A stretch of DNA of 64,000 nt from Beggiatoa leptomitoformis (GTDB lineage: Bacteria > Pseudomonadota > Gammaproteobacteria > Beggiatoales > Beggiatoaceae), in contig NZ_CP012373.2 in the NCBI RefSeq assembly GCF_001305575.3, positions 310,001 through 374,000 of the forward strand, in the 5' to 3' direction. Shown in pieces: positions 17,729 through 54,300 of this stretch (position 1 is the first letter of the stretch; every line of letters starts with the position of its first letter). The notes under the pieces are model-generated. The model ran no database searches, was not told the DNA's origin, and saw only the letters and a program-made list of their open reading frames with translations. The position numbers and the translations under genes were made by a program.

Positions 17729-20700
17729 TTAATAATCACGCTGTTGTTCGATGATGGCAAAAATACGCTCGACTTCTTTTAAATCATTAAGGATTTTATA
17801 AATCGCCCGCTTAATCCCGTTCTCCTTAGCCTGATTACCGCGCCAGCCGTCGCTTTTACTTTCTAAAATGGCGGTATCAATCTGTAAAGCCAGTGCTTCA
17901 TTTTGCCCAAGATTGTTGTATAGCGCACGTTTGGCTTGAGTATTGAGCAATGGCGGCATGTTATTCATTGTTCCGCTAGAGACTTGATTTGCTAAATTAG
18001 CCATTTCTTGTAAATAGCGTTGATAATCAATAGCTTTTTGTTTGCGCTGTAAAATAATTTCCGCTAACAGCAATGACATTTTTTCAAAATACGCGGGATC
18101 AAGTAATTGGTCTTTGATAATTTTGCTACGCACATTGTTTTCAATGGTTTCCGCCGCCGCGTCTTGATTGTCTTTAATCCCATCAGGCAGGGTATTGATA
18201 GCCTTCTCGATGCCGATTTTTTGGATAATCTCTAAAATGGGCAGATTGGCGAAAGGGGAAATGACTACGGAATCTTCTGCTTGAATATACAAATCAATTA
18301 AATTCTGCATGTCGGCTTCATAGGCTTTGAGGTCAAGCACTTCACCGCTGGCTTTGCGGATGATTTCGCGTAGTTTGTGGTAATGATTGAGGCGATTTGT
18401 AATATATTTAATTTCATCAGCGCGATAACCTGCACCTTCCATGTCGTCGGCAATATTGGCATACGCACGGATAAAGCTGACGGTGGTTTGATATAAGGTC
18501 ATGCGTAGCACTTCGCGCTGTTTCAAATCCGTAGCGATGTCGGTGTTACCGCAGAAGTAATGGATATAATCTAAGTCATTTTTTGGTTGTGGCACGGGTT
18601 CACAGATTAATTCGATGGCTTCTAGCGCATTGTCCAGCCGTTCACGTCCTTCTTTAAGGCGATTTTTGAGCAAAATATCGCAATCTTTAGCTTCAAAATC
18701 ATCATAATCTAATTCTTTGGTATAGACTTGAATCGCGCCCGTTAGATTTTCGAGCAAATTCTTGTAATCAACGATGCAACCTATCAGCTTGTCTTCAGTG
18801 TCTAAGCGGTTGACGCGGCAAATGGCTTGAAATAAGCCGTGATCTTGCATTGATTTATCAATATACAAATAGCTGCAACTGGGCGCATCGAATCCCGTCA
18901 GCAGTTTATCCACCACAATCAATAGTTTCATTTTGGCGGGTTCATGGATAAATTGCTGTTTGACTTCATTTTCATAGGTTTCGGCTTTGCTCTTGCCTGA
19001 TTTGGCTTGTATTGCTTTGAGCAAATTGGTGTAAGTGTTATAAATAAATTGCTTTTTGGTTTCGGTATTCGCCCCCGTTTCTTCATCGCTTATATCGGTA
19101 TTTTGCGGGTTGTAAGAAGTCACTAGCGCGCATTTGCCTGTTAATGCCGTGTCTTGAAATAAGTTGTAATAGTGGCAAGCGTCAAAAATACTGGAGGCGA
19201 CTAAAATCGCATTGCCCGACTCAGAACTTAATCTTGCTTTACTGCTGAAATCGCTCACTATATCAGCCACTATTTTGCCCAAGCGTGATTCAGAGCTGAG
19301 GACTTTTTGCATTGTGCCCCATTTCTTTTTCAATGCCGCTTGCTGATACTCATTTAATCCGCTGGTTTTGGCGGTAAACCACGCATCAATTTCTTGTGGT
19401 GAATTCAGGCGTTGGTCAATGTCGCGGGCTTCATAGACTAAATCAAGCACCACTTTATCTTCCACTGCTTCTTTAAATTTGTAAGTATGGATATAGTTGC
19501 CAAACACTTCTAAGCTGGTGGCTTTGTCTTGTTTTAATAAAGGCGTGCCAGTGAAGCCGATAAATACCGCGTTGGGTAGTAATGCCTTCATGGTGCGGTG
19601 CAATTTGCCGCTTTGGGTGCGATGGCATTCGTCCACAAATACAAATAATTCACCGACGGCAGGGCTGGGCTGGCTTTTTAATTGTTCGATAAAGGCTTCA
19701 AAATTATCCACCTCTTTATTGCCGAATTTATGCACTAGGGAACACAACAGGCGCGGGGTTTGTTGTCCTAGTTGTTTCATCAAATCGCGTCCGCTATGGC
19801 TGCGGTGTATTTTTTCCCCTGCTTCTTCAAATACTTGTTTGATTTGTTTGTCGAGTTCATCGCGGTCAGTGATAACCACGACACGGGCGCGGGGATTGTT
19901 TTCTAGTATCCATTTTGCCAGTAATACCATGACGATACTTTTGCCGCTGCCTTGGGTGTGCCAGATAATACCGCCTTGTTTGCGCTGGATATATTTCTGC
20001 GCGGCTTTGATACCGAAATATTGATGTACACGCGGGAGTTTTTTCTTGTTGCCATCAAATAAGATAAAGTCGTGGATTAATTCAATTAGGCGGGATTTGT
20101 TGCAGATTTTGCGTAAATATTTGTCTAGTTTGTAATCGGTGTTGTCTTGTTCGTCTTCTTTCCAGTTGAGAAAAAATTTTTCGGGTGTGCCAATTGTGCC
20201 GTATTTCAAGCCTTCGGAGTCGTTCCCAGCAAATATGAATTGTATGGTGCTAAAAAATGCGCCGATAACGCTTGATTTTTGGTTGTTTAAACTTTGGCGG
20301 ATGCCTTCACCAAGGGATACGCGGCTGTTTTTTAGTTCTAACACGGCGATGGCGATACCGTTTATATATAGCACGATGTCGGGGCGTTTGGTTTTTTCGC
20401 CGTCGTATATTGTGACTTCTTCAGCAATATAAAAATCGTTGGCTTCGGGGTGTTGCCAGTTGATTATATGCACGGTGTCGGTGGGTTCGCCTGCGGCTAT
20501 TTTCACCGCCACGCCATAACGCAGTAGTTGATAGACTGCTTTGTTATTGTTGTATAAATTTTGGGCGTGGTTGTTGGCGGTGGTTTGTAATTTGTCTAAG
20601 GCTTTGTTGATGTGGGCTTGGCTGTAACCGTTGGCGGATAGGTATTTGCTCAGTTGCGGCGGTTCGATGTTGCGGTTATCGGGTTTGCTTTGTAAGTTGC

Positions 20701-20785
20701 CGAGATAGGTGTAGCCCAGTTGTTCGGAAAATAGTTTTATCACGCGGTTTTGGGTGGCGCGTTCGGGTTTGTCAACGGTGGTCAT
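17729..20785 (-). CDS. hsdR: Type I restriction enzyme, R (motor/nuclease) subunit
   Basis: 1018 residues. ATP-driven DNA translocase and nuclease of the HsdRMS complex. The N-terminal PD-(D/E)xK nuclease shows RPDIVLYINGIAIAVLELKN (Asp, then ExK). The superfamily 2 helicase motor follows, with Walker A HTQGSGKSIVMVLLAKW, the DEAD-like box FVDECHRTQSGKLH, motif III GFTGTP and later LLTGFDAPSC. A helical C-terminal domain binds the methylase core. ATG 20785 overlaps the hsdS stop by four bases. No break is seen, so it should be functional. Expression depends on the hsdM promoter. Confidence 0.95.
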   Translation of the reverse strand: MTTVDKPERATQNRVIKLFSEQLGYTYLGNLQSKPDNRNIEPPQLSKYLSANGYSQAHINKALDKLQTTANNHAQNLYNNNKAVYQLLRYGVAVKIAAGEPTDTVHIINWQHPEANDFYIAEEVTIYDGEKTKRPDIVLYINGIAIAVLELKNSRVSLGEGIRQSLNNQKSSVIGAFFSTIQFIFAGNDSEGLKYGTIGTPEKFFLNWKEDEQDNTDYKLDKYLRKICNKSRLIELIHDFILFDGNKKKLPRVHQYFGIKAAQKYIQRKQGGIIWHTQGSGKSIVMVLLAKWILENNPRARVVVITDRDELDKQIKQVFEEAGEKIHRSHSGRDLMKQLGQQTPRLLCSLVHKFGNKEVDNFEAFIEQLKSQPSPAVGELFVFVDECHRTQSGKLHRTMKALLPNAVFIGFTGTPLLKQDKATSLEVFGNYIHTYKFKEAVEDKVVLDLVYEARDIDQRLNSPQEIDAWFTAKTSGLNEYQQAALKKKWGTMQKVLSSESRLGKIVADIVSDFSSKARLSSESGNAILVASSIFDACHYYNLFQDTALTGKCALVTSYNPQNTDISDEETGANTETKKQFIYNTYTNLLKAIQAKSGKSKAETYENEVKQQFIHEPAKMKLLIVVDKLLTGFDAPSCSYLYIDKSMQDHGLFQAICRVNRLDTEDKLIGCIVDYKNLLENLTGAIQVYTKELDYDDFEAKDCDILLKNRLKEGRERLDNALEAIELICEPVPQPKNDLDYIHYFCGNTDIATDLKQREVLRMTLYQTTVSFIRAYANIADDMEGAGYRADEIKYITNRLNHYHKLREIIRKASGEVLDLKAYEADMQNLIDLYIQAEDSVVISPFANLPILEIIQKIGIEKAINTLPDGIKDNQDAAAETIENNVRSKIIKDQLLDPAYFEKMSLLLAEIILQRKQKAIDYQRYLQEMANLANQVSSGTMNNMPPLLNTQAKRALYNNLGQNEALALQIDTAILESKSDGWRGNQAKENGIKRAIYKILNDLKEVERIFAIIEQQRDY

Positions 20786-22092
20786 GGGTTTGTTTCCGTT
20801 TCAGGCGATACCAGTCGAATTTGTCCCGTGAGCAGGTTTTGCATCATGCCTTGTTTGATTTGTTGGTATTTGTTGAGTTTACTTTCTAGGGCGTTTATTT
20901 CGGTGTCCATGTCGGATAGGATTGTGGCGATTCGGGTTTGTTCTTCTTTTGGCGGCAAAGGTATTTTAATTAATTTTAAATTAGTTTTAGAAATACCATA
21001 TACTTTTAATCCTGTCGCAAGACGATCAAGCTGCTCTTTTACATATTTTGTCGAATGGATATAACCTCTAAACCCATCAACGAAAACGTTTTTAGAATCT
21101 CTCAGTAAAAATGTGTGCAAACCAGAAATTACTTTTTTAATTCCAACTCCTTTTATTTCTACACTCTTACCAATTCCCTTGTAATCCTCTGAAGCATCAG
21201 CCATTATTAAATCGCCATCTTTGATAACAACATAATTTTTAGCTTTATTCTCAGCAATGCCTGACACTTCATTCTTTTTGAAATCCACAAATCCATCCCA
21301 TAGCGTATGAATGTCTCCATAATGAATATATCCATATTCTCCACTGTTACTTAATTCGCTTCTGGAAAAGGATGCAGTTGATAGAAAGTTAAATGCTTCG
21401 TCATACGTTATAGTCGCCCACCCCGCTTTTAAGCGACCATTTTCATAGGGGTTGAGCAGGGTTTGCATCGCACCTTGTTTTATCTGGCGTTTTTTGGCGA
21501 TGAGGCGGGTGAGCGATTGAATCAAGGCATCGGCATCGCTTAAAACATTGGCTATGGCGGTTTGTTCTTCCAGCATATTTGGAAGAGGTATTTTAATCTT
21601 CCTCATAACACTCTTTGGTACAAAACCCATTCCTGACCCAGACTGATTATCTTTTATGTTTTGAGAAATCTTTGGGGAATTAACTACTGAAGATAAGTAG
21701 CTTGGAATAATTTTATTTGTATTTGGAATAATTCTCATTACATTCCATGCAAAGCTGCATTCTGTTTCCACTGATAACAGTGAACCTGTACCTAAACGAG
21801 CGCCTATATTAGAGAATAAAAAATCATTTTTCTTTAACTTATATCTGTCACTATATGTGGAGAAAGTTTTTTTAGAAATGTGATCTGCTCCATTAAATCT
21901 CACTTCTTTATCAATAATATTATTCGCCTTAAGAATTGGGATTCCACTACCACTATTTACATATTCTGGTTTATCGATTGCGGTATTAACACCTTGAAGC
22001 ATATCCAAAATTATATCCTTAAGTTCACTAACCTCCCAATCCACAGGAATCACCCCAACCTCAGTCTGTTTATATCCCGCTTTCAGTGCCAT
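20782..22092 (-). CDS. hsdS: Type I restriction enzyme, S (specificity) subunit
   Basis: 436 residues, with two target-recognition domains (about 15-180 and 225-395) separated by conserved helices: TAIANVLSDADALIQSLTRL with KKRQIKQGAMQTLLNP in the middle, and TRIATILSDMDTEI with KYQQIKQGMMQNLLTGQIRL at the end. Each TRD reads half of a split DNA site; the site cannot be predicted here. The start at 22092 overlaps hsdM by ten bases. Both TRDs look complete, and the repeated QIKQGxMQ(T/N)LL segment is a known hot spot for TRD exchange. Confidence 0.94.
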   Translation of the reverse strand: MALKAGYKQTEVGVIPVDWEVSELKDIILDMLQGVNTAIDKPEYVNSGSGIPILKANNIIDKEVRFNGADHISKKTFSTYSDRYKLKKNDFLFSNIGARLGTGSLLSVETECSFAWNVMRIIPNTNKIIPSYLSSVVNSPKISQNIKDNQSGSGMGFVPKSVMRKIKIPLPNMLEEQTAIANVLSDADALIQSLTRLIAKKRQIKQGAMQTLLNPYENGRLKAGWATITYDEAFNFLSTASFSRSELSNSGEYGYIHYGDIHTLWDGFVDFKKNEVSGIAENKAKNYVVIKDGDLIMADASEDYKGIGKSVEIKGVGIKKVISGLHTFLLRDSKNVFVDGFRGYIHSTKYVKEQLDRLATGLKVYGISKTNLKLIKIPLPPKEEQTRIATILSDMDTEINALESKLNKYQQIKQGMMQNLLTGQIRLVSPETETNP

Positions 22093-24500
22093 ACAAACCC
22101 CATTTTTTCCAAATGCGCCGTTACTGTTTGCTCTAATTCTGCCACTTTCTCGGTTTGTTGCGATAAGGGGATTTCATACCGTTCCGCCAATGCCTTGATG
22201 CGCTGCGTGAGATGCTGACTAATGCGATCCATTTCAGAATGAACATCTTGGTCAATCCGCGCCATCCATTTATCATCCACCACCAACTGCTTAATCTGTT
22301 CTTCGGTAAGCGTCGGATAAAAGTCTAACAAATCAACATCCAATTGATTCTCCATGACTTTAACCGCTTTCTTATTATCGGCTTCACTGTCCAAAAGGTG
22401 CAAATACTGCTTGAGAATTTCCTGCTCTGGTTTGGCTTCTGCATCGCCTTTAATTTCCTTGAGTCGCGCCGTAATACTGCCCTTATTGATTCTATCCAAT
22501 TCTGCAAAAAAACCCTCCTCACCGCCGTGTTCTTCCTCCAGTTCAGTCTTCTGACTTTGCACGGTTTCCAGTTCAGCATTCAACGCGTCAATCGCTTGCT
22601 GTTGCTCAGAAAAATAATGCTTAATGACCAATGATTTAGGGATTAAATCACACGCCCAACCTTTATCAATGGTTTTGGTAACGTTGCCGTCTTTATTCTT
22701 CTTTTCCTCAAGAATGCGGTCAATCGTCGCCTGCCAACCGTCCGCCGCAATCAAATACGCATCATCTTGCATCACTTCAAACCAATAACTCATTAAATGC
22801 TGATAAACCGCATACTGGTCAATCAATGCCTTATCCGCGTAAGCCGTCAACAAGGCTTCACTCAGTGTGCGAATGATTTCTTTAGGATGATAGCCCGCTT
22901 GCAATGCTTTTAAGTCGGCAGTGCTGCGCTGTTCCCATAATTGAAACACTTGACGCATGTTGTTCATATAACTGGTAAATTCAGGATGCTGATAAATGCG
23001 GGTTTTAATCTCATCCTTAGCGACTTGCAAACTCAAATAATCCGCGCACCGTTTCGCAGGCGCAAATAACGCGGATTTAAGCGCGGGACAAACCGCCCAA
23101 TAACTATGCAATGCCTCAATATCCGCCTTGGGAATATCGCCCAATAAATGCGCTGCAATATCCTGTAAATCCTCTGCTTCACTGCTGTCAATATAACGCG
23201 GAATATTTAAATTAAACTCATTTTTTTCAATCTCATTGAACGCGACCATTCTACTGTAGCCATCAATATCCATTTGCTTATTAAACACATCCACGATTTT
23301 ATGAATATCGCGCTCACGCAGACGGTTTTTATTGCCATCTTTAACAAAGCCCTTACCCGCATCAATCATAAAAATACCTTTACGATGCTCTGCGTTTTCC
23401 TTATCAATCACAATAATGCACGCAGGAATACCCGTGCCATAAAACAAATTAGCAGGCAAGCCAATAATGCCCTTAATCAAGCCCTTGCGTACAATATTCT
23501 CACGAATAACCGCCTCAGCATTACCGCGAAATAACACCCCATGCGGCAGAATACACGCGCCTTTACCGCGATTTTTTAACGAGCGAATAATGTGCAACAA
23601 ATAGGCATAATCGCCATTTTTATCAGGCGGCACACCATATATAAAACGCTGATGCGGGTCTTGCTCAGTATTAACCCCCGTACTCCAGCGTTTATCACTA
23701 AACGGCGGATTCGCAACCACGAAATCAAAAATTTTCAGGCTGCCTTCATTCATAAACTTAGGTGTGGATAAAGTATTTTCCCGCTCAATCACCGCAGTAG
23801 GATTGTTATGTAAAATCATATTCATACGCGCCAACGCACTGGTAGCCGCATCTTTTTCTTGACCGTATAAAGACACGGGGGTTTTTGCCGCATCGGCGAC
23901 TTTTAACAACAAAGAACCAGAGCCACAAGTGGGGTCATAAACTGTAGTATCGCCGCTGGTGTTTGCTTCACCAATGCCGATAATTCTCGACATAACATGA
24001 CTGACTTCTGACGGCGTATAAAATTGTCCCTTACTCTTGCCGCTCTCAGTCGCAAAATGGCGCATCAAATACTCATAAGCATCGCCAAGAATATCATCCC
24101 CATCCGCACGGTTTTTACTAAAATCTAAGGCTTTATTTTCAAAAATAGCGATAAGATTGCTCAGACGTTCAACCATATCTTTGCCAGAACCCAATTTTTC
24201 AGGGTCGTTGAAATCAGGCATACTGGCGAGTTTATTTTTCTCTGCCAACGGCGCGATGATTTTCTTATTAATATCATCACCAATGGAAGCCTTCCCCTTC
24301 AACGCCACCATATCCTTAAAACTCGCACCTTCTGGAATGATGACAGGCGCAAACGGTTGCCCCGCGTATTTATCGCTGACGTATTTAATAAACAACATCA
24401 CCAGCACATAATCTTTGTATTGACTGGCATCCATACCGCCACGCAGTTCATCGCAGCTTGCCCAAAGAGAAGAATAGAGTTCAGATTTTTTGATTGTCAT
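22083..24500 (-). CDS. hsdM: Type I restriction enzyme, M (adenine-N6 methylase) subunit
   Basis: 805 residues, longer than the classical 520-residue HsdM. The N-terminal HsdM domain (ELRGGMDASQYKDYVLVMLF) precedes the SAM-binding motif DPTCGSGSLLLKVAD and the adenine-N6 catalytic motif NPPFSDKRW. The C-terminal 300 residues are helical with a coiled-coil-like region rich in Glu/Lys (about 630-700) and end in EQTVTAHLEKMGFVWH. The long form is known in a subgroup of type I systems. ATG 24500 is only 16 bases from a RAYT remnant, so the promoter must lie in or beyond mobile DNA. First gene of hsdM-hsdS-hsdR-peptidase. Confidence 0.95.
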   Translation of the reverse strand: MTIKKSELYSSLWASCDELRGGMDASQYKDYVLVMLFIKYVSDKYAGQPFAPVIIPEGASFKDMVALKGKASIGDDINKKIIAPLAEKNKLASMPDFNDPEKLGSGKDMVERLSNLIAIFENKALDFSKNRADGDDILGDAYEYLMRHFATESGKSKGQFYTPSEVSHVMSRIIGIGEANTSGDTTVYDPTCGSGSLLLKVADAAKTPVSLYGQEKDAATSALARMNMILHNNPTAVIERENTLSTPKFMNEGSLKIFDFVVANPPFSDKRWSTGVNTEQDPHQRFIYGVPPDKNGDYAYLLHIIRSLKNRGKGACILPHGVLFRGNAEAVIRENIVRKGLIKGIIGLPANLFYGTGIPACIIVIDKENAEHRKGIFMIDAGKGFVKDGNKNRLRERDIHKIVDVFNKQMDIDGYSRMVAFNEIEKNEFNLNIPRYIDSSEAEDLQDIAAHLLGDIPKADIEALHSYWAVCPALKSALFAPAKRCADYLSLQVAKDEIKTRIYQHPEFTSYMNNMRQVFQLWEQRSTADLKALQAGYHPKEIIRTLSEALLTAYADKALIDQYAVYQHLMSYWFEVMQDDAYLIAADGWQATIDRILEEKKNKDGNVTKTIDKGWACDLIPKSLVIKHYFSEQQQAIDALNAELETVQSQKTELEEEHGGEEGFFAELDRINKGSITARLKEIKGDAEAKPEQEILKQYLHLLDSEADNKKAVKVMENQLDVDLLDFYPTLTEEQIKQLVVDDKWMARIDQDVHSEMDRISQHLTQRIKALAERYEIPLSQQTEKVAELEQTVTAHLEKMGFVWH

Positions 24501-24755: not shown

Positions 24756-25283
24756 TTACTGCTGAAACTTCCACAATTGACCAGATACGTTCTGACATTT
24801 GTCCATAAACGCCGCGCCATTCATTGAGCCCTTGACTTGATTGCCTTCAAGGCATTCGTTGTTGCTCTCACGGAATTGGGTGGTGAGTTTGAAGTATCCA
24901 TTCTCGGCTGGGGTTGCTTTCCACAACTGACCAGATACGTTCTGACATTTGTCCATAAACGCCGCGCCATTCATTGAGCCCTTGACTTGATTGCCTTCAA
25001 GGCATTCGTTGTTGCTCTCACGGAATTGGGTGGTGAGTTTGAAGTATCCATTCTCGGCTGGGGTTGCTTTCCACAACTGACCAGATACGTTCTGACATTT
25101 GTCCATAAACGCCGCACCATTCATTGAGCCGTTCACTTGGTTGCCTTCAAGACATTCATTCTTACCCTCGCGGAACTGAGTTGTGAGCTTGAAATAACCG
25201 TCTGGGAAACTGGAATCAGCCGCTAAGGCATTGCTGCTTATTGCAATGATTGCAGGGACAGTTAGTTTCAATAACATTTTCAT
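24756..25283 (-). CDS. Secreted three-repeat protein, ricin-lectin-like
   Basis: 175 residues. A signal peptide (MLLKLTVPAIIAISSNALA, cleavage near ALA-ADSS) is followed by three tandem 50-residue units, each running GYFKLTTQFRE...NECLEGNQV...GSMNGAAFMDKCQNVSGQLW. Two Cys per unit suggest one disulfide each. The QxW-type ending (GQLW) recalls ricin-type beta-trefoil repeats, and three repeats would build one trefoil; sugar binding is therefore a guess. Units 2 and 3 are identical in protein and nearly so in DNA (150-bp period), which means recent duplication. The gene sits between the two 93-bp repeats and may have arrived with them. A ribosome site (GGAG) precedes ATG 25283. Confidence 0.72.
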   Translation of the reverse strand: MKMLLKLTVPAIIAISSNALAADSSFPDGYFKLTTQFREGKNECLEGNQVNGSMNGAAFMDKCQNVSGQLWKATPAENGYFKLTTQFRESNNECLEGNQVKGSMNGAAFMDKCQNVSGQLWKATPAENGYFKLTTQFRESNNECLEGNQVKGSMNGAAFMDKCQNVSGQLWKFQQ

Positions 25284-44203: not shown

Positions 44204-47113
44204 TTAAAGCCAATTTCCCATCATTATAAAAGGTGCCCAATAGTAAGGATGTTCATAATAGGCAGGATAACCCTCTGTTTGCCCTGCTTTACGGGCATTA
44301 ATAAAGGCTTGTTGTGTTGCTTGCAAAGCAGCCCCTTTGGTTATTCCTTTTTGTTCTGCGTGTGTTTTATATAAATGTTGCATAAATGCACCTGTACTTT
44401 CATCGTCCACAGGCCATAATGTTGCGATAACACTTTTTGCACCTTGTCGTTGCGCAAGTGCGGCAAACCCTTCTACTTCACGCCCGTTGCTAAAATCACC
44501 CACTGCTGTTTCACAGGCTGAAAGTGTCAGTAAATCTATATTATCAAAGTGATAGCCATCACGAATAGCGGCTAATGTTAATTCACTTCCATCACCGATA
44601 AGTAAAAAAGAATCTTGGTCTGTGCCTGTTTTAAAAACAAAATGGCTGGCAATGTGTAGGACTGAATAAGTCGTTTGTTGTAATACTTCATGTAGGGTTT
44701 TAGCATTAAACGCTTCGTTTAAACGGATAATTCCCGGAATAATGCCCTCTTTTTTACCCACTTGTTTAACAATGGTTTCTAACTCTTTGCGGACAGCAGG
44801 TAACGGGTTAAAGTTGCGTATGCCTTTAGTCAGTCCTAAACCTGCTAGTGTCCAATTATCATGTGGTTGAATGTTAATTTTATCGCGTCCAACTTCAATG
44901 AGTAGTGCAACGGCATAATTTTCAGCGAGATAATGTTGTCCATCATATAGCGCAGCAAAAGGGATATACCGTAAGCGTCCATCTAAAGAAAGCATGAGGG
45001 TTTTTGCTCCAACCCTTTGTAAATCTTCTGCAATAGGGGCAATGAGGATTTTATATAACGCGCTTGCTAGGGCTAAGGGTGGACGACGTATATCTTGTAA
45101 CGCATTACGAAAACTTAAAATCTTATCGTTTAGTTCAGTTGCATTAATGACAGTATCCCGACAAAATTGTTGGTCGGCAGTAGTTAAAATCATGCGGAGT
45201 TTATCACTGGTTATTAAATAGTGAATTAATACCGCATCATTACTGAGTTCACGTAAGGTTTTTTGGAGCGCGACTAACGTTGTTAAGTCTTTTTGATTTT
45301 GGGGAAAGTCGGATTGTGTCGTGCAAATATTGCTGGCTTCCGCGCTTTGTCCTGCTTGTTGGCGACGTTGTTCTTGTTCCGCAAAACTTTGTTTAATATC
45401 ATTTAAATACTGGTTTAGTTGTTTAAATGTTGCATCTGATTCGCGTTGCAAGTCTTGTAGCTGTTGTTGCTCTTCTGGCGTAAGGATGATTTTTTGGCGT
45501 AAGGTACGAATTGCCTCTGCAATACTGCTAATTTGGCGATTTAATTCCGTGCCTTTCGTAATCCAAGGTTGTTCTGTTGTGTTGTAATTTGCTTGTAATG
45601 TGCGAACATCGGTTGTGCCACTGTCACGGCGGATAAAATCAAAATATTCTTCTTCTTTCAACATCATTAAAACTTGTTGTGCTTCTGATAATCGTCCTTG
45701 GTCAGTTAATAGCCCCGCTAAATGACGATAAACATCTTCTTTGTCCAGCAGAAAGCTACGTTGCAATTCTTTATCCATTTTGGCGACATTGACACGCAAT
45801 TCTTGCAAGGTATTAACCGCCTGTTTACCAATAAAAATCGCTGTATCATATTGTTTTTGTGCGGCATATAGACGGCTTAAGATGTCTAAAACTTTCCACA
45901 ACAACAAGGGTTGTTCGCTGCTTAATGCAATGCCTAATGCGCGTTGTAATTGATTTTCCGCAGTAAAGAAATCATTTTGTGCAATATTTGCCTTGGCTTG
46001 GTTGGTGAGTGTTGTCGCAACGGTTGCATGGTCTTTACCATAGATTTTTTCCCAAATAATTAAGGCTTTGGCGTAAAATAATTGCGCTTTGGCATAATCG
46101 CCCTCCGTCGCGTATAACAGACCTAAATTGTTAAAATTACGTGCAATATCAGGGTGGTCAGCTTTATACACTTTTTCAGTGATGGCTAACGAGCGTTGTA
46201 ACAGTTTTTCTGCCTGAACGTAATCTTTTAAGTTATAGGCTAACCAGCCTAAATTATTTAGCCCTGCAGCCACAATGGGATGTTCTTTACCGGGGGTTTT
46301 TTCCCAAATGGCTAGGGCTTTTTCATACAAAGGCTTTGCCCGTTGATAATCGCCAATAGTGCGATATAGCTGTCCTAAATTATTGTAACGAATGCCCAAA
46401 TTCATGGGGTCTAATTCTTTAGCTTTCACAGCTTTTTCATCAATTTGCAAGGCTTGCTGTAATAACGTTTCTGCTTGGGCGTAATCCCCTTTTTGTCGGT
46501 ATAATTCAGCAAGATTATTCAGGCGAATCGCTACGCGCGGATGTTGCGCACCTGAAACCGCTTTATCAATGCTTAACGCCCGTTGCAAGAGGGGTTCAGC
46601 CTCAGTAAAATTTCCTAAATTTCTATATAATTCAGCAAGATTATTCAAGCGTATAGCCACTTTTTGACTGTTTGCACCTGCGTCTTTTTCATCAATGGCT
46701 AATGCACGTTTATACAAAGTCTCCGCCTGAGCATAATCGCCTAATTCATAATAAACGCCCGCTAAGTTGTTTAAACTAACCGCAACCGCGCCATGTTCCG
46801 CGCCCAAGCGTTTTTCCCGAATATCCAATGATTCTTGATAGGCTTGTTGTGCCTCAGCGAAGCGTGCTTTGCTTTTATACACATCGCCCATACTTTGCAA
46901 AATAGCCGCACTATCCTCCGCCCAGTCTTGACGGCTCATTTCTAAGGCTTGCCGATACCGTGACAACGCGGTTTCTGTGTCTCCCGCGAGTTCTGCGGTG
47001 CGCCCCTCGGTATAAACTTGTTGATGTGCTTCTCGCGGTGTTGTCGCATGAATGGAAACTGCTACACAGAGAAGAGAATAAAAACAATAAGGTAAGATTT
47101 TTTTTAGCATCAT
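44204..47113 (-). CDS. Secreted TPR-CHAT protein (caspase-like peptidase)
   Basis: 969 residues. Signal peptide (ILPYCFYSLLCVAVSIHA), then about nine TPR units of the 42-residue kinesin-light-chain type (GDYAQAETLYKRALAIDEK and similar) to about residue 430, a helical linker, and a C-terminal CHAT domain (about 650-969). The caspase-type dyad is visible: His in VLHIASHFVF and Cys in LLTLSACETAVGD; AAIRDGYHFDNID and SVIATLWPVDDEST complete it. Such proteins are common in filamentous and autotrophic bacteria and are usually of unknown target. The signal peptide argues for a periplasmic place, which sets it apart from cytosolic gasdermin-type CHAT proteases. No gasdermin gene adjoins it. Confidence 0.88.
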   Translation of the reverse strand: MMLKKILPYCFYSLLCVAVSIHATTPREAHQQVYTEGRTAELAGDTETALSRYRQALEMSRQDWAEDSAAILQSMGDVYKSKARFAEAQQAYQESLDIREKRLGAEHGAVAVSLNNLAGVYYELGDYAQAETLYKRALAIDEKDAGANSQKVAIRLNNLAELYRNLGNFTEAEPLLQRALSIDKAVSGAQHPRVAIRLNNLAELYRQKGDYAQAETLLQQALQIDEKAVKAKELDPMNLGIRYNNLGQLYRTIGDYQRAKPLYEKALAIWEKTPGKEHPIVAAGLNNLGWLAYNLKDYVQAEKLLQRSLAITEKVYKADHPDIARNFNNLGLLYATEGDYAKAQLFYAKALIIWEKIYGKDHATVATTLTNQAKANIAQNDFFTAENQLQRALGIALSSEQPLLLWKVLDILSRLYAAQKQYDTAIFIGKQAVNTLQELRVNVAKMDKELQRSFLLDKEDVYRHLAGLLTDQGRLSEAQQVLMMLKEEEYFDFIRRDSGTTDVRTLQANYNTTEQPWITKGTELNRQISSIAEAIRTLRQKIILTPEEQQQLQDLQRESDATFKQLNQYLNDIKQSFAEQEQRRQQAGQSAEASNICTTQSDFPQNQKDLTTLVALQKTLRELSNDAVLIHYLITSDKLRMILTTADQQFCRDTVINATELNDKILSFRNALQDIRRPPLALASALYKILIAPIAEDLQRVGAKTLMLSLDGRLRYIPFAALYDGQHYLAENYAVALLIEVGRDKINIQPHDNWTLAGLGLTKGIRNFNPLPAVRKELETIVKQVGKKEGIIPGIIRLNEAFNAKTLHEVLQQTTYSVLHIASHFVFKTGTDQDSFLLIGDGSELTLAAIRDGYHFDNIDLLTLSACETAVGDFSNGREVEGFAALAQRQGAKSVIATLWPVDDESTGAFMQHLYKTHAEQKGITKGAALQATQQAFINARKAGQTEGYPAYYEHPYYWAPFIMMGNWL

Positions 47114-48750: not shown

Positions 48751-51700
48751 ATGCCTATCCCAAAAACGCCTACTTTCCTTTTAAAAAAAATAGAGGCCTG
48801 TCGCGCTCAGCAAGAAAAAACGTTGAGCTTAAAAGAGGGAGACAAGTTTAACAACTTTCGTCTGCTTCATATTCCGCCTGAAGTTTTTACCCTAACACAC
48901 TTAGAACATTTAGATTTATGTGATAACGCTATTCAAATCGTTCCCGACGAGATTAAACAACTAACCCAGTTAAAACGCTTAGATTTACGCGGTAATCCCT
49001 TAAGTCGAGTTGCAGATATTGCTGGTTTAGTTGTGCATTATGCTGATTTTCAGCGTTTAAATATTCCCGCCAAAAATATTCTTGGTTTAAAACTCACCTT
49101 ATTTTCTTATGACCCGCCCACTGGGATTTTTGCATGTCCGAATTTAATTGCGTTAGAAATTCGTAACCATCGTTTAACCCAAATTCCTGACTGGGTTTTT
49201 AAATTGGTTAATCTGACAGAATTGAATTTAAGTAATAACAAACTACAAAATCTGTCAGGGCTAGAAACGCTGAGGAATCTCTCTACTTTAGATTTGCGTG
49301 ATAACCGATTAACGAGTCTGTTAGGGCTAGAAACGCTGAGGAATCTCTCTGCTTTAGATTTGCGTGGAAACCAATTAACGAGTCTGTCAGGGCTAGAAAC
49401 GCTGGCGAATCTCTCTGCTTTAGATTTGCGTGGAAACCAATTAACGAGTCTGTCAGGGCTAGAAACGCTGGCGAATCTCTCTGCTTTAGATTTGCGTTCT
49501 AACCGATTAACGAGTCTGTCAGGGCTAGAAACGCTGGCGAATCTCTCTACTTTAGATTTAAGTTTTAACCAATTAACGAGTCTGTCAGGGCTAGAAACGC
49601 TGGTGTATCTCTCTTCTTTAGATTTGAGTGGAAACCCATTAACGAGTCTGTCAGGGCTAGAAACGCTGGCGAATCTCTCTACTTTAGATTTAAGTTTTAA
49701 CCAATTAACGAGTCTGTCAGGGCTAGAAACGCTGGCGAATCTCTCTTCTTTACATTTGAGTCATAACAAATTAACGAGTCTGTCAGGGCTAGAAACGCTG
49801 ACGAATCTCTCTGCTTTAGATTTGAGTTTTAACGAATTAACGAGTCTGTCAGGGCTAGAAATGCTGGGGTATCTCTCTTCTTTAGATTTGAGTAGAAACG
49901 ACTTAACGAGTCTGTCAGGGCTAGAAACGCTGGCGAATCTCTCTTCTTTAGATTTGAGTAGAAACGACTTAATAAGTCTGTCAGGGCTAGAAACGCTGGC
50001 GAATCTCTCTTCTTTAGATTTAAGTTATAACCAATTAACGAGTCTGTCAGGGCTAGAAACGCTGGCGAATCTCTCCTTTTTAAATTTGAGTAATAACGAC
50101 TTAACGAGTCTGTCAGGGCTGGAAACGCTGGGGAACCTCTCTACTTTATATTTGAGTGGAAACCAATTAACGAGTTTGTCAGGGCTAGAAACGTTGGGGA
50201 ATCTCTCTTCTTTAAATTTAAGTAGAAACCAATTAACGAGTCTGTCAGGGCTAGAAACGCTGGCGAATCTCTCCTTTTTAAATTTAAGTAGAAACCAATT
50301 AACGAGTCTGTCAGGGCTAGAAACGCTGGCGAATCTCTCCTTTTTAAATTTGAGTAATAACGACTTAACGAGTCTGTCAGGGCTAAAAACGCTGGCGTAT
50401 CTCTCTTCTTTAGATTTAAGTGAAAACCAATTAGCGAGTCTGTCAGGGCTAGAAACGTTGGCGAATCTCTCCTTTTTAAATTTGAGTAATAACGACTTAA
50501 CGAGTCTGTCAGGGCTGGAAACGCTGGCGTATCTCTCTACTTTAGATTTAAGTGAAAACCCATTAACGAGTCTGTCAGGGCTAGAAATGCTGGCGAATCT
50601 CTCTTCTTTATATTTAAGAGATAATCAATTAACGAGTCTGTCAGGGCTAGAAACACTGGCGAATCTCTCTGCTTTAGATTTGCGTTCTAACCAATTAACG
50701 AGTCTGTTAGGGCTAGAAACACTGGCGAATCTCTCTGCTTTAGATTTGCGTTCTAACCAATTAACGAGTCTGTTAGGGCTAGAAACACTGGCGAATCTCT
50801 CTGCTTTAGATTTGCGTTCTAACCAATTAACGAGTCTGTCAGGACTAGAAACGCTGGGGAATCTCTCTTCTTTGGATTTGAGTTATAACCAATTAACGAG
50901 TCTGTCAGGGCTAGGAACGCTGGTGAATCTCTCTGCTTTAAATTTGAGTTATAACCAATTAACGAGTCTGTCAGGGCTAGAAACGCTGGCGAATCTCTCT
51001 ACTTTAGATTTAAGCCACAATCAATCATTACACGAGTTACCTGATAATCTATTTTTTCTACAAAAATTAGAAGCCTTGCAATTAGAAGGTACTGTTCTCA
51101 CTTATCCGCCGATTGAACAATTAGAGTTAGGGCGGGAAGGAGATGCCAACCTTTTTCGTGTTCGTAATTACTTACGTCAATTAGCCCAAGGCGAACAAGA
51201 TTACTTATACGAAGCTAAATTATTGATAGTTGGTGAAGGCGGGGCGGGAAAAACAACGTTAGCCAACAAAATTAAAGATAAAACCTATCAAGTTCCTGAT
51301 AGTCATGTTGGTAGTACAGAAGGCATCGATGTGATGACATGGTACTTTGCTTATAATCAAGAACATCAATATCGTGTCAACATTTGGGATTTTGGTGGGC
51401 AAGAAATTTACCACGCCACGCATCAATTTTTCCTCACTAAACGCGCTTTATACCTATTAGTCGCGGATAATCGCAGAGAAGACACTGATTTTTATTATTG
51501 GCTCAATGTGGTTGAGACACTTAGCGATAGCAGTCCTATTTTATTGATTAAAAATGAAAAAGACGACCGCCAGCGAGAAATTAACGAACCCGCCTTAAAA
51601 GCACAATTTGCGAATTTTAAAGACAGCTACGCCACCAATTTAAAAACTAACAGCAAAGACTTTTCCCGTTTCTTAGAAGGTTTAGAACATCATTTAAAAC

Positions 51701-53175
51701 AACTACGTCATATTGGTATGCCATTGCCTAAAACATGGCTAGATGTCCGTGCAGAATTAGAAAAACTCAGTAAAACTGGAAACTATATTTTCTTACAAGA
51801 GTATTTGGCTATTTGCGAACGGTACGGCTTTAAAAATAGTGGCGATAAATTGCAACTGAGCGAAACCCTGCACGAGTTAGGGGTAATTTTACATTTTCAA
51901 CAAGATCCCCTTCTAAGGAAAACGCTATTTCTCAATCCTGCATGGGCAACCCAAGCGGTTTATCACGTTCTTGATAACAAAACCGTACAAAATAACTATG
52001 GCAAATTTACTAAAGATGATTTAGACCAGATTTGGCACGAATCGCAATATGAGGGGATGCACGATGATTTATTGCAATTAATGCTCAATTTTAAATTATG
52101 TTATCCACTGACTTATTGCCAAAAAACCTACATTGCCCCGCAATTACTCGGCGAAACACAACCCGATTATCAGTTTGATACACAAAACACAGTAACAGTG
52201 TATTACAAAAATTATACATTCATGCCTAAAGGGATGCTAAGCCAATTAATTGTTATTTTACATAAAGTTATTGCTGAAAAACAAACTTTAGTCTGGCGTA
52301 GCGGCGTTGTATTAAAAAAACAAGAAACACAGGCGGAAATAATTGAAAAATATGGAAACCGTGAAATTAGTATCCGCGTTGCGGGCAGAAATCGACGGGA
52401 TTTACTAACCGAAGTAATGCTTGAATTGGATAAGATTCATGAAAGTTATCATAAACATCTAATTTATGAAGTAGAATTACCTTGTAGCTGTGCAGAACCT
52501 TATTATTTTAACTTTAAAACGCTCAAAGACTTTGCGGTTGACCATGCCAAGATTCAATGTCAAAAACGTAGTTGTCGACAAATGCTTGACGCTCGGGATT
52601 TACTTGAGGGGATATTAAACATGAAAGAAGAAACTGGAAAAACAAGTTTTAGCAATATTTCTATTGGTAGTGTGCTTGAGGGGATATTAAACATGAAAGA
52701 AGAAACTGGAAAAACAAGTTTTAGCAATATTTCTATTGGTAGTGTGGCGGGAGATGTGAGTTTTAACCAAGCAGACAGAGATATTGTAAAGAATAACGAT
52801 AACCGCTCGATTAATGTGTCGGGCAATGGCAACGTGGTGGGCGATAATGCAACAATTTATCACACAGAAACCCACAACACGCTAAATCAAGGCATGCAAG
52901 CAGATTTAAAATCTTTGCGCGAAATTCTTTTAAAGATAGAGTTAGGTGAAGACAAAGCCAAAGTTGAGAAACTTTTAACAACGGCTGAAAATGAAGTAAA
53001 AAAACCAGAACCTGATAAAGAAGAAGTCGGTAGTGCATTAGACCGTGTGTTTAAACTGGTGAAGAAAAGCGGAAAATTAATTGGTGCGGTTCGTACTGAT
53101 TTAGTCCCTATCGCAAAAAATGTAGGCGAGTGGCTAGGTGAACATGGCGGAGAACTAAGCGATTTTTTTCAATAA
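48751..53175 (+). CDS. LRR-ROC-COR (bacterial Roco) protein
   Basis: 1474 residues, no signal peptide. Residues about 40-165 are ordinary leucine-rich repeats; about 168-757 hold 26 near-identical 22-residue repeats plus a partial one; at about 828 a Ras-like ROC domain begins with P-loop GEGGAGKTT, then DFGGQE (about 880) and KNEKDD as the base-specificity motif. A COR dimerisation domain follows (about 990-1200), then SCAEPYYFNF with a Cys-rich patch, two copies of a 24-residue segment, a Gly/Asn linker (NVSGNGNVVGDN) and a helical tail. Roco GTPases cycle with dimerisation; LRRs likely bind a partner. Bacterial roles are mostly unknown. It stands alone; an Rpn-like gene follows by 100 bases. 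Confidence 0.93.
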   Translation: MPIPKTPTFLLKKIEACRAQQEKTLSLKEGDKFNNFRLLHIPPEVFTLTHLEHLDLCDNAIQIVPDEIKQLTQLKRLDLRGNPLSRVADIAGLVVHYADFQRLNIPAKNILGLKLTLFSYDPPTGIFACPNLIALEIRNHRLTQIPDWVFKLVNLTELNLSNNKLQNLSGLETLRNLSTLDLRDNRLTSLLGLETLRNLSALDLRGNQLTSLSGLETLANLSALDLRGNQLTSLSGLETLANLSALDLRSNRLTSLSGLETLANLSTLDLSFNQLTSLSGLETLVYLSSLDLSGNPLTSLSGLETLANLSTLDLSFNQLTSLSGLETLANLSSLHLSHNKLTSLSGLETLTNLSALDLSFNELTSLSGLEMLGYLSSLDLSRNDLTSLSGLETLANLSSLDLSRNDLISLSGLETLANLSSLDLSYNQLTSLSGLETLANLSFLNLSNNDLTSLSGLETLGNLSTLYLSGNQLTSLSGLETLGNLSSLNLSRNQLTSLSGLETLANLSFLNLSRNQLTSLSGLETLANLSFLNLSNNDLTSLSGLKTLAYLSSLDLSENQLASLSGLETLANLSFLNLSNNDLTSLSGLETLAYLSTLDLSENPLTSLSGLEMLANLSSLYLRDNQLTSLSGLETLANLSALDLRSNQLTSLLGLETLANLSALDLRSNQLTSLLGLETLANLSALDLRSNQLTSLSGLETLGNLSSLDLSYNQLTSLSGLGTLVNLSALNLSYNQLTSLSGLETLANLSTLDLSHNQSLHELPDNLFFLQKLEALQLEGTVLTYPPIEQLELGREGDANLFRVRNYLRQLAQGEQDYLYEAKLLIVGEGGAGKTTLANKIKDKTYQVPDSHVGSTEGIDVMTWYFAYNQEHQYRVNIWDFGGQEIYHATHQFFLTKRALYLLVADNRREDTDFYYWLNVVETLSDSSPILLIKNEKDDRQREINEPALKAQFANFKDSYATNLKTNSKDFSRFLEGLEHHLKQLRHIGMPLPKTWLDVRAELEKLSKTGNYIFLQEYLAICERYGFKNSGDKLQLSETLHELGVILHFQQDPLLRKTLFLNPAWATQAVYHVLDNKTVQNNYGKFTKDDLDQIWHESQYEGMHDDLLQLMLNFKLCYPLTYCQKTYIAPQLLGETQPDYQFDTQNTVTVYYKNYTFMPKGMLSQLIVILHKVIAEKQTLVWRSGVVLKKQETQAEIIEKYGNREISIRVAGRNRRDLLTEVMLELDKIHESYHKHLIYEVELPCSCAEPYYFNFKTLKDFAVDHAKIQCQKRSCRQMLDARDLLEGILNMKEETGKTSFSNISIGSVLEGILNMKEETGKTSFSNISIGSVAGDVSFNQADRDIVKNNDNRSINVSGNGNVVGDNATIYHTETHNTLNQGMQADLKSLREILLKIELGEDKAKVEKLLTTAENEVKKPEPDKEEVGSALDRVFKLVKKSGKLIGAVRTDLVPIAKNVGEWLGEHGGELSDFFQ
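49252..51019 (+). repeat. 66-bp tandem repeats coding 22-residue LRRs
   Basis: 26 complete units (49252-50967) and a partial 27th, each coding LSGLETLxNLSxLDLxxNxL-TS. Most units differ from the consensus by a handful of bases, and runs such as units 22-24 are almost identical. Variation is concentrated at the L-D-L-x-x-N positions that form the exposed face. Such an array should change length by slippage or recombination. Confidence 0.95.
52603..52746 (+). repeat. Exact 72-bp tandem duplication in the LRR-ROC gene
   Basis: 52603-52674 and 52675-52746 are identical and code twice for LEGILNMKEETGKTSFSNIS plus IGSV. In frame, so the protein gains 24 residues. Identity at every base means the duplication is very recent. 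Confidence 0.93.
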
Positions 53176-53276: not shown

Positions 53277-54300
53277 ATGCCAACACTACACGACAAAGGT
53301 TATAAAAGACTCTTCTCCAATAAAGTCTTCTTTCGCCAACTCCTAGAATCCTTCGTCCCTGAACCTTGGGTACAACACATTGATTTCGACACCTGTGAAC
53401 GCCTTGAAAAATCTTTCATTACTGACCACTACAAAGAAACTGAAAGTGACTTAATTTATAAAGTTAAATTCAAACAACAAGAAGCCTATATTTATGTCCT
53501 GTTAGAATTCCAATCCTCCGTCGTTTGGTTTATGGCTCTCCGTGTTCTACACTACGTCTGTAGCTTCTGGTTAGATTTCGCAGAAACTCGCCCTAAACAG
53601 AAAAAACTCCCGCCCATTTTTCCTATCGTCCTTTACAGTGGCGATAAACGCTGGACTGCCGCCGAGAATCTGCATGATATTCTGGAACATCCGCACTTAT
53701 TAAAAGCCTATACTCCAGAATTCCGCTATTTTAAAATTGCTGAAAATGAATATTCGCAACTTAGTTTCAACCCTATTTCTCGCAGAAACCTATCCGACAG
53801 ATATGGCACTACTCAAAGAACAAGTTCTAAACTTATTTGAGGAGAAAACAGACAAAGAAGCGGCTTCATTATTTCTCAACTGGTTTGTACAATTAGTTGT
53901 ACACAACCGACGTAATTTAGAAGATTATCAAGTATTAGAAACCATCTATCATGACAAGTTAGAGGCAAAAACCATGTTAGAACACGCAATGGATAAAGAA
54001 CGACAACAGGCTTTTGTGTTGGGAAAAATAGAGGGAATTGAGGAGGGTATCTTAAAAGGTAAGATGGAAGGTAAAATAGAAGGCAAGATGGAGGGTAAAA
54101 TAGAGGGCAAGATGGAAGGTAAAATGGAAGGCAAAGCAGAACTGTTAATAACTCTATTAGAAGCACATTATGGTCAATTAACAGATATGCAAAGAGCCAG
54201 ACTGTTACAGCTCAGTGATGAAAGATTAACCTACTTATCACTAAAATTGTTTCAGACAACCTCTCTAGCGGAATTTTGGCAGGAAGTGGAAGTACATTAA
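53277..54300 (+). pseudogene. Rpn-family recombination-promoting nuclease, frameshifted
   Basis: Two overlapping frames make one gene. Frame 1 (53277-53840) starts HDKGYKRLFSNKVFFRQLLESFV and includes the PD-(D/E)xK nuclease core (ESDLIYKV, YVLLEFQSSV); family similarity stops at KIAENEYSQ near 53755. Frame 2 carries the expected continuation RNLVSTLFLAETYPTDMALL to the end at 54300. Around the joint several expected codons are missing, so a small deletion shifted the frame. The C-terminus has a run of (K/M)EGK repeats (about 54055-54135), which often varies in this family. Rpn/YhgA proteins are DNA nucleases related to transposases. Intact length would be about 340 residues. Confidence 0.85.

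Follow-up and report, generated by a model that had tools for sequence, protein, structure and literature searches.

For human LRRK2, the Roco protein of Chlorobaculum tepidum (CtRoco) serves as a structural model. CtRoco is reported to pass through a GTP-driven dimer-monomer cycle, in which GTP makes it a monomer and its LRR domain swings through some 135 degrees; a nanobody that sits inside the curved LRR horseshoe helps to shift the protein to, or hold it in, the active monomer (PMC11052575). Proteins in which an AP-GTPase (Roc) and COR stand between "rapidly evolving" LRRs at the N-terminus and variable effectors at the C-terminus have been predicted to be counter-invader systems (Kaur et al. 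2021, PMC8195603). An LRR-Roc-COR counter-invader proposal therefore already exists and the kind is known; the relevant parts of that paper hold no codon test, repeat homogenisation or turnover count. In fungi, het-d/het-e (HNWD) carry WD repeats which undergo concerted evolution, with positive selection at four interface codons (PMC1805685, PMC2873952). The relevant parts of the fungal papers describe repeat homogenisation, interface selection, and length polymorphism for het-d/het-e and other fungal NLRs (PMC1805685, PMC4986451, PMC2873952). For bacterial Roco LRRs, no report of a codon-level concave excess or of concerted evolution was found in the open-licence literature, as far as its accessible text goes.

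The locus described here lies in a 64,000-nucleotide stretch of DNA from Beggiatoa leptomitoformis (the window). It encodes a Roco protein with the same core architecture and order as the AP-GTPase systems and with a rapidly evolving LRR region fused to Roc-COR, as judged by codon test and turnover. TIR domains occur among related tails; the tail of the window protein differs in carrying no recognised effector. CtRoco (PDB 6hlu, 8r4b-d) matches the window protein in sequence over residues 434-1235 (E 4e-94), and both internalin A and the CtRoco LRR domain (5il7) were among the top 15 Foldseek matches to the LRR model. Unlike CtRoco, the window protein has an array made up of 26 22-aa units that are near-identical, and its model places a further four putative helices at the C-terminus. 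Solenoids of the internalin A type share the unit length and fold, whereas the window LRRs are fused to Roc-COR and their units are near-identical in DNA. The likeness to het-d/het-e lies in near-identical repeats, a unit number that varies (for the window Roco, among its relatives), excess change at interface codons (putative ones in the window Roco), and concerted evolution. However, the fungal proteins join a STAND NTPase to WD repeats and exchange repeats between family members, while the window protein joins a Ras-like GTPase to LRRs and its unit DNA has no other copy in the Beggiatoa genome. Since its core is Roc-COR and not a STAND NTPase, the window Roco may work like het-d/het-e without being a member of that family.

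Architecture of the gene and its repeat array

The Roco gene is a single open frame of 1,474 aa in which Pfam calls LRR, Roc, COR-A, and COR-B, all above their cut-offs (Table 1). Across 21 aligned sequences the P-loop G, K, and T and the DFGGQ columns show no variation, so that the nucleotide-binding motifs are intact. By sequence, the closest solved relatives are the CtRoco set, with 4wnr the closest for Roc-COR alone. The preliminary description of the locus, made from its letters, had read it as a Roco GTPase with an LRR array coupled to a ROC-COR switch, and the Pfam order, the intact G motifs, and the PDB matches to CtRoco agree with this. In the N-terminal region, model confidence is low across most of residues 1-128. 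The 72-bp duplication at the end of COR-B has no second copy in the translations of the two nearest relatives.

Table 1. Features of the Roco gene and of other genes in the window (positions within the window).
Feature	Position	Strand	Remarks
Roco gene, 1474 aa	48751..53175	+	Order: N-terminal LRR-like region, LRR array, Roc, COR-A, COR-B, linker, C-terminal helices
N-terminal region, degenerate LRRs	48751..49251	+	Still recognisable in the translations of L012 and L039, the two nearest relatives
26 complete 66-bp (22-aa) LRR units	49252..50967	+	Tandem Repeats Finder and frame-by-frame table
Partial 27th unit and end of LRR domain	50968..51150	+	Array reaches 51011 by Tandem Repeats Finder
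Roc GTPase domain, residues 823-938	51217..51564	+	Pfam PF08477, E 9.7e-25; GEGGAGKT P-loop, DFGGQE motif
COR-A, residues 993-1133	51727..52149	+	Pfam PF16095, E 8.2e-45
COR-B, residues 1154-1286	52210..52608	+	Pfam PF25497, E 1.8e-27
Perfect 72-bp (24 aa) tandem duplication	52603..52746	+	100% match; end of COR-B; second in-frame duplication in the Roco gene
Four predicted helices after disordered linker, about residues 1372-1474	52864..53172	+	From the model; candidate output module
YhgA-like Transposase_31 / DUF4351 protein	53277-54300	+	Directly downstream of the Roco gene; coding sequence broken into two frames that overlap
12- to 48-bp repeats coding EGKMEGK	54042-54135		In the YhgA-like gene
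TPR-CHAT protein	44204-47113	-	Near the Roco gene; two housekeeping-enzyme-like genes (from translations) between
Ricin-B-lectin-like protein	24756-25283	-	150-bp repeat present in 2.8 copies (94% matches)
Type I restriction-modification genes HsdR, HsdS, HsdM	17729-24500	-	In a row

Tandem Repeats Finder (TRF) reported a period of 66 with 26.7 copies at 49251-51011 (89% matches, 0% indels, score 2541), a result which excludes low complexity or chance as the origin of the array. The twenty-six near-identical units of the preliminary description were recovered in full, followed by a partial 27th, with a mean pairwise nucleotide identity of 87.6% among the 26; the end at first placed at 51019 lies about 8 bp too far. 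Near-identical tandem repeats are prone to collapse or expansion during assembly, and the repeat number could in principle be wrong. This is extremely improbable, given that the genome is a single contig and that the D-402T genome, if it is the one represented by the window, was PacBio-sequenced and Illumina-polished according to the relevant part of PMC7356093. Moreover, the relative L039 has a similar array, and 52 of the 79 Roco genes with a complete N-terminal part, the window gene included, are similar to themselves over 200 bp or more.

Within the array, units resembled their neighbours more closely than they did after shuffling (lag 1, p 0.005; lag 2, p 0.015). Identical units reappear out of order, leaving 24 unique units among the 26, and a single exact in-phase repeat of 100 bp or more is left (131 bp, at 50643). 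The similarity of neighbours and this remaining exact repeat fit duplication and exchange of adjacent units, through an enzymatic route that we infer.

The array compared among strains and relatives

The preliminary description had also suggested active length change and shuffling of the units, and had named an identical repeat number in all strains as the outcome that would speak against it. Two strains allow a comparison, D-401 (CP018889.2) and D-402T (CP012373.2). An earlier count between B. leptomitoformis D-401 (genome 4,266,286 bp) and D-402T gave 98 differing loci, mainly insertions and deletions (PMC5920184). After correction of both sequences 21 differences are given in the relevant part of PMC7356093, namely 1 substitution, 4 one-base indels, and 16 inserts of 853, 782, 378 or 11 bp. 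None of these is a multiple of 66 bp, the size expected from gain or loss of units. The array therefore seems to be the same in both strains, as judged from the published differences rather than from the D-401 sequence. As D-401 and D-402T are almost one clone, this is a weak test which says little about rate, and the contrary outcome is seen only in part, in two near-clonal strains. Plasmids were of no use for strain comparison, since the Roc-COR proteins found in 12 of 72,556 plasmid records (Nostoc, Acaryochloris, Haliscomenobacter, and others) each have less than 60% identity.

Relatives keep both protein ends and differ in the middle. The nearest are L039, from the MAG STC_44, with a Roc-COR 67% identical to that of the window, and L012, from the same genus, at 70%. 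Against the 26 units of the window, L039 has about 18 and L012 about 11-12. Third-position identity was 0.893 within the window array and 0.846 within that of L039, and 0.759 between the two; higher identity within than between arrays is what concerted evolution predicts. In contrast, the units of L012 are not homogenised, with a third-position identity of 0.590 among themselves and 0.644 to the units of the window. The genes flanking the Roco gene differ between the window and the same-genus genome (translations read by eye), and strict orthology of L012 is therefore not established. The genomes searched for relatives included one of the same genus (4.3 Mb, three contigs). In this same-genus genome, the DNA polymerase III alpha-like gene (L120 12456-16697, minus strand) seems, from its translation read by eye, to hold an intein. 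In a genome of the same family, several open frames with LRRs, each about 590-650 aa long, lie near one another (L153 (G006:C18:66000-82000), L154, and L155), and the same genome has 14 Roc-COR matches at E up to 0.001.

A wider comparison used 30 locus pairs with Roc-COR DNA at least 90% identical; they involve 26 loci, are not independent, and are of unproven orthology. First and last units were dropped and arrays then having fewer than three units were excluded. Third-position identity was higher within arrays than between them in 29 of these pairs, the pattern known from het-d/het-e, and the unit number differed in 27. At 92% identity or above, 15 of 16 pairs (orthology again unproven) had no six-residue face code in common, a face code being the residues at the six concave-face positions of a unit. 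The L068/L114 pair (93.6%) kept 8 of 11 face codes, in order. Exchange of repeats between paralogs of one genome was also considered. The most similar units of two loci were closer to each other than the Roc-COR parts were in 7 of 22 paralog pairs, by at most 0.04, which gives no clear sign of exchange. Length change between lineages is thus supported by the different unit numbers and faces of relatives, while the two strains, whose published differences contain no multiple of 66 bp, give no sign of it within the species.

These comparisons bear on the idea that the array has a structural or self-assembly role, in which it would scaffold cell organisation in filaments, its length or surface tuning assembly or binding to a family of host proteins, with no foreign target. 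Many of the related Roco loci, taken as the best 80 of 96 matches to the window Roco, come from cyanobacteria which we take to be filamentous, and this fits development as well as defence. Moreover, the accessible parts of the open-licence literature looked through do not name a natural ligand for any bacterial Roco. However, a fixed host partner would not favour the loss of all common face codes in 15 of 16 close pairs, as far as these are orthologous, and the TIR tails found in 19 of 82 Roco proteins point to conflict. We consider a self-assembly role rather improbable.

Replacement change at the concave face

In the 26 units, eleven of the 22 residues are invariant (1, 3, 4, 7, 10, 11, 13, 15, 18, 20, and 22). 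The most variable is position 17, with nine kinds of residue from nine codons, followed by 19 (six), 8 (five), 12 and 14 (four each), and 16 (two). For the entropy and codon tests the array was cut into 26 units starting at unit position 10 (28 were found), so that counts at positions 1-9 may differ by one from those of the frame-by-frame table. The six concave-face positions (11, 12, 14, 16, 17, and 19) hold 70% of the amino-acid entropy, positions 10, 13, 15, 18, and 20 hold 0%, and the remaining 30% lies elsewhere. There are 18 distinct six-residue face codes among the 26 units. Position 8 varies as well (1.43 bits) and lies off the concave face; the focus on the concave face is therefore strong and not complete. 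The initial reading of change concentrated at exposed positions thus holds, with position 8 as the off-face exception.

In an AlphaFold prediction for residues 1-820, made from the single sequence (mean pLDDT 76), a three-residue strand recurs every 22 residues. The first strand of the array (residues 179-181) corresponds to unit positions 12-14, so that 12 and 14 flank leucine 13, and 16, 17, and 19 come after. That these variable positions sit on the concave side is taken from established LRR knowledge.

The pattern of codons has some resemblance to the work of a diversity-generating retroelement (DGR). DGR mutagenesis leaves a signature at AAY codons, and in the array a third-place T with differences in the first two places is seen in the codons of positions 12 and 14 and in six of the nine of position 17, loosely like mutagenised AAY. 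Exceptions are position 19 and the other three codons of position 17. Moreover, a genome-wide match of the unit DNA found no second copy in the single-contig 4,265,317 bp genome, and hence no template; the other loci with the same units for which a search had been proposed come down to the Roco locus itself. The single PF00078 reverse-transcriptase match in the genome is 1.63 Mb away and is a Drt4-type defence reverse transcriptase (E 5e-194). This gene is found at L119 763-2340 (minus strand), near 1,992,000 of the same genome. The single-locus unit DNA and the distant Drt4-type enzyme largely refute mutagenesis by a DGR, which is hardly credible as the source of the variation, and the comparison with diversity-generating proteins first made for this array fails in the DGR sense: there is neither a template repeat nor a nearby DGR reverse transcriptase.

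Nei-Gojobori counts between units were made for concave, core, and other non-core positions, the last scored without the three consensus leucines per unit. In the window array, concave piN was 0.331, core piN was 0, and piS was 0.109, which gives a concave piN/piS of 3.02. Other non-core piN was 0.087 (0.068 with the consensus leucines). The ratio is robust, at 3.00 on the 24 unique units and 2.34-4.28 on resampling of units. Neutral simulations on the tree of the units, in which only stops were barred, reached it in 1 of 500 cases without transition bias and in 0 of 500 with a threefold bias, with the same counts in two runs; the concave-to-other ratio of 3.8 was reached in 0 of 500 under either bias setting. 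An IQ-TREE partitioned codon model was left out of the evidence, as its printed parameter (0.92 for a core without replacement change) is not readable as omega. There is an excess of replacement change at the concave-face codons of the window array, which form the putative interface. The codon-level comparison of exposed and core positions proposed at the outset therefore came out in favour of the exposed ones, and the even spread over core positions which had been set against the idea was not found.

Further arrays were drawn from the related Roco loci, which as the best 80 of 96 matches are not an unbiased sample. Of 90 arrays, the 51 with at least six units and a mean identity of at least 0.70 were tested, the window included; L012 (mean identity 0.635) was left out and L039 was represented by its longest unbroken run, of 11 units. 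Concave piN exceeded other non-core piN in all 51 arrays and exceeded piS in 40, not being above it in the other 11, and the ratio of the window was the highest of all. Conversely, other non-core piN was above piS in 7 of 51 (6 of 51 with the consensus leucines) and core piN in none. L012, the same gene as L124, lacked a concave excess (ratio 0.67). Three non-Roco LRR arrays with a mean identity of at least 0.70 gave ratios of 1.53, 0.87, and 1.10, and more diverged ones gave 0.53-1.10. In old arrays, saturation prevents such an excess from showing. With three young arrays this control is not decisive; the concave excess may not be special to Rocos, and the pattern is not claimed as confined to them.

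Recent expansion by slippage under relaxed constraint would offer another account, in which exposed residues drift and nothing is recognised. LRR proteins in general are more variable at the surface than in the core, and one of the three young non-Roco arrays has a clear excess too. D-401 and D-402T appear identical at the array, going by the published differences. In addition, new repeats across whole proteomes diverge faster, with purifying selection strongly relaxed and positive selection also at work, according to the relevant part of PMC5120217. However, relaxation alone would bring piN at most to the level of piS, and in the window concave piN is 3.0 times piS. Since other non-core piN (0.087) stays below piS (0.109), the excess belongs to the concave face in particular. 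Drift under relaxed constraint is unlikely on this evidence, if still to be taken seriously.

A proposed switch with a diversified sensor

The reading that we prefer is that of an LRR-Roc-COR sensor whose recombining array is under diversifying selection for a changing non-self target, and we hold it with slightly better than even confidence. The LRR solenoid would do the sensing and Roc-COR the switching. Through recombination or slippage among its 66-bp repeats the array would grow, shrink, and stay alike, while selection would favour different residues on the concave face; each lineage would then come to have its own array length and binding face.

By analogy with the Chlorobaculum protein, a ligand on the diversified face could be the trigger of the window Roco. 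Once a target is bound in the concave face, the LRR would come away from Roc-COR, the GTP-bound monomer would be favoured, and the C-terminal module would be released or exposed. In the model of the C-terminal half this module follows a low-confidence linker. A Pfam scan gave no match and no recognised effector for the tail, and in PADLOC the tail weakly matched PDC-M14B, a candidate defence family (E 2.8e-6). Among the 82 tails scanned (81 relatives and the window), TIR_2 was found in 19 and CHAT in one. The most likely use of such a switch would be the recognition of a changing non-self molecule, from phage or a competitor.

A broader proposal is that bacterial Rocos hold a diversity generator free of retroelements. 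Recombination within the gene would homogenise and resize the LRR array and selection would diversify mainly the concave face, to give lineage-specific receptors for phage or kin, as an independent bacterial counterpart of fungal het-d/het-e. This we advance tentatively, as a possibility that is on balance doubtful. The window Roco itself is a real, measurable diversifying recognition array of a known kind, whose function we infer. A concave face changing faster than silent sites points to a probable ligand site and a moving target, and makes the search for a phage or competitor ligand practical. As the concave excess is found in 40 of 51 arrays, such a study is not tied to Beggiatoa.
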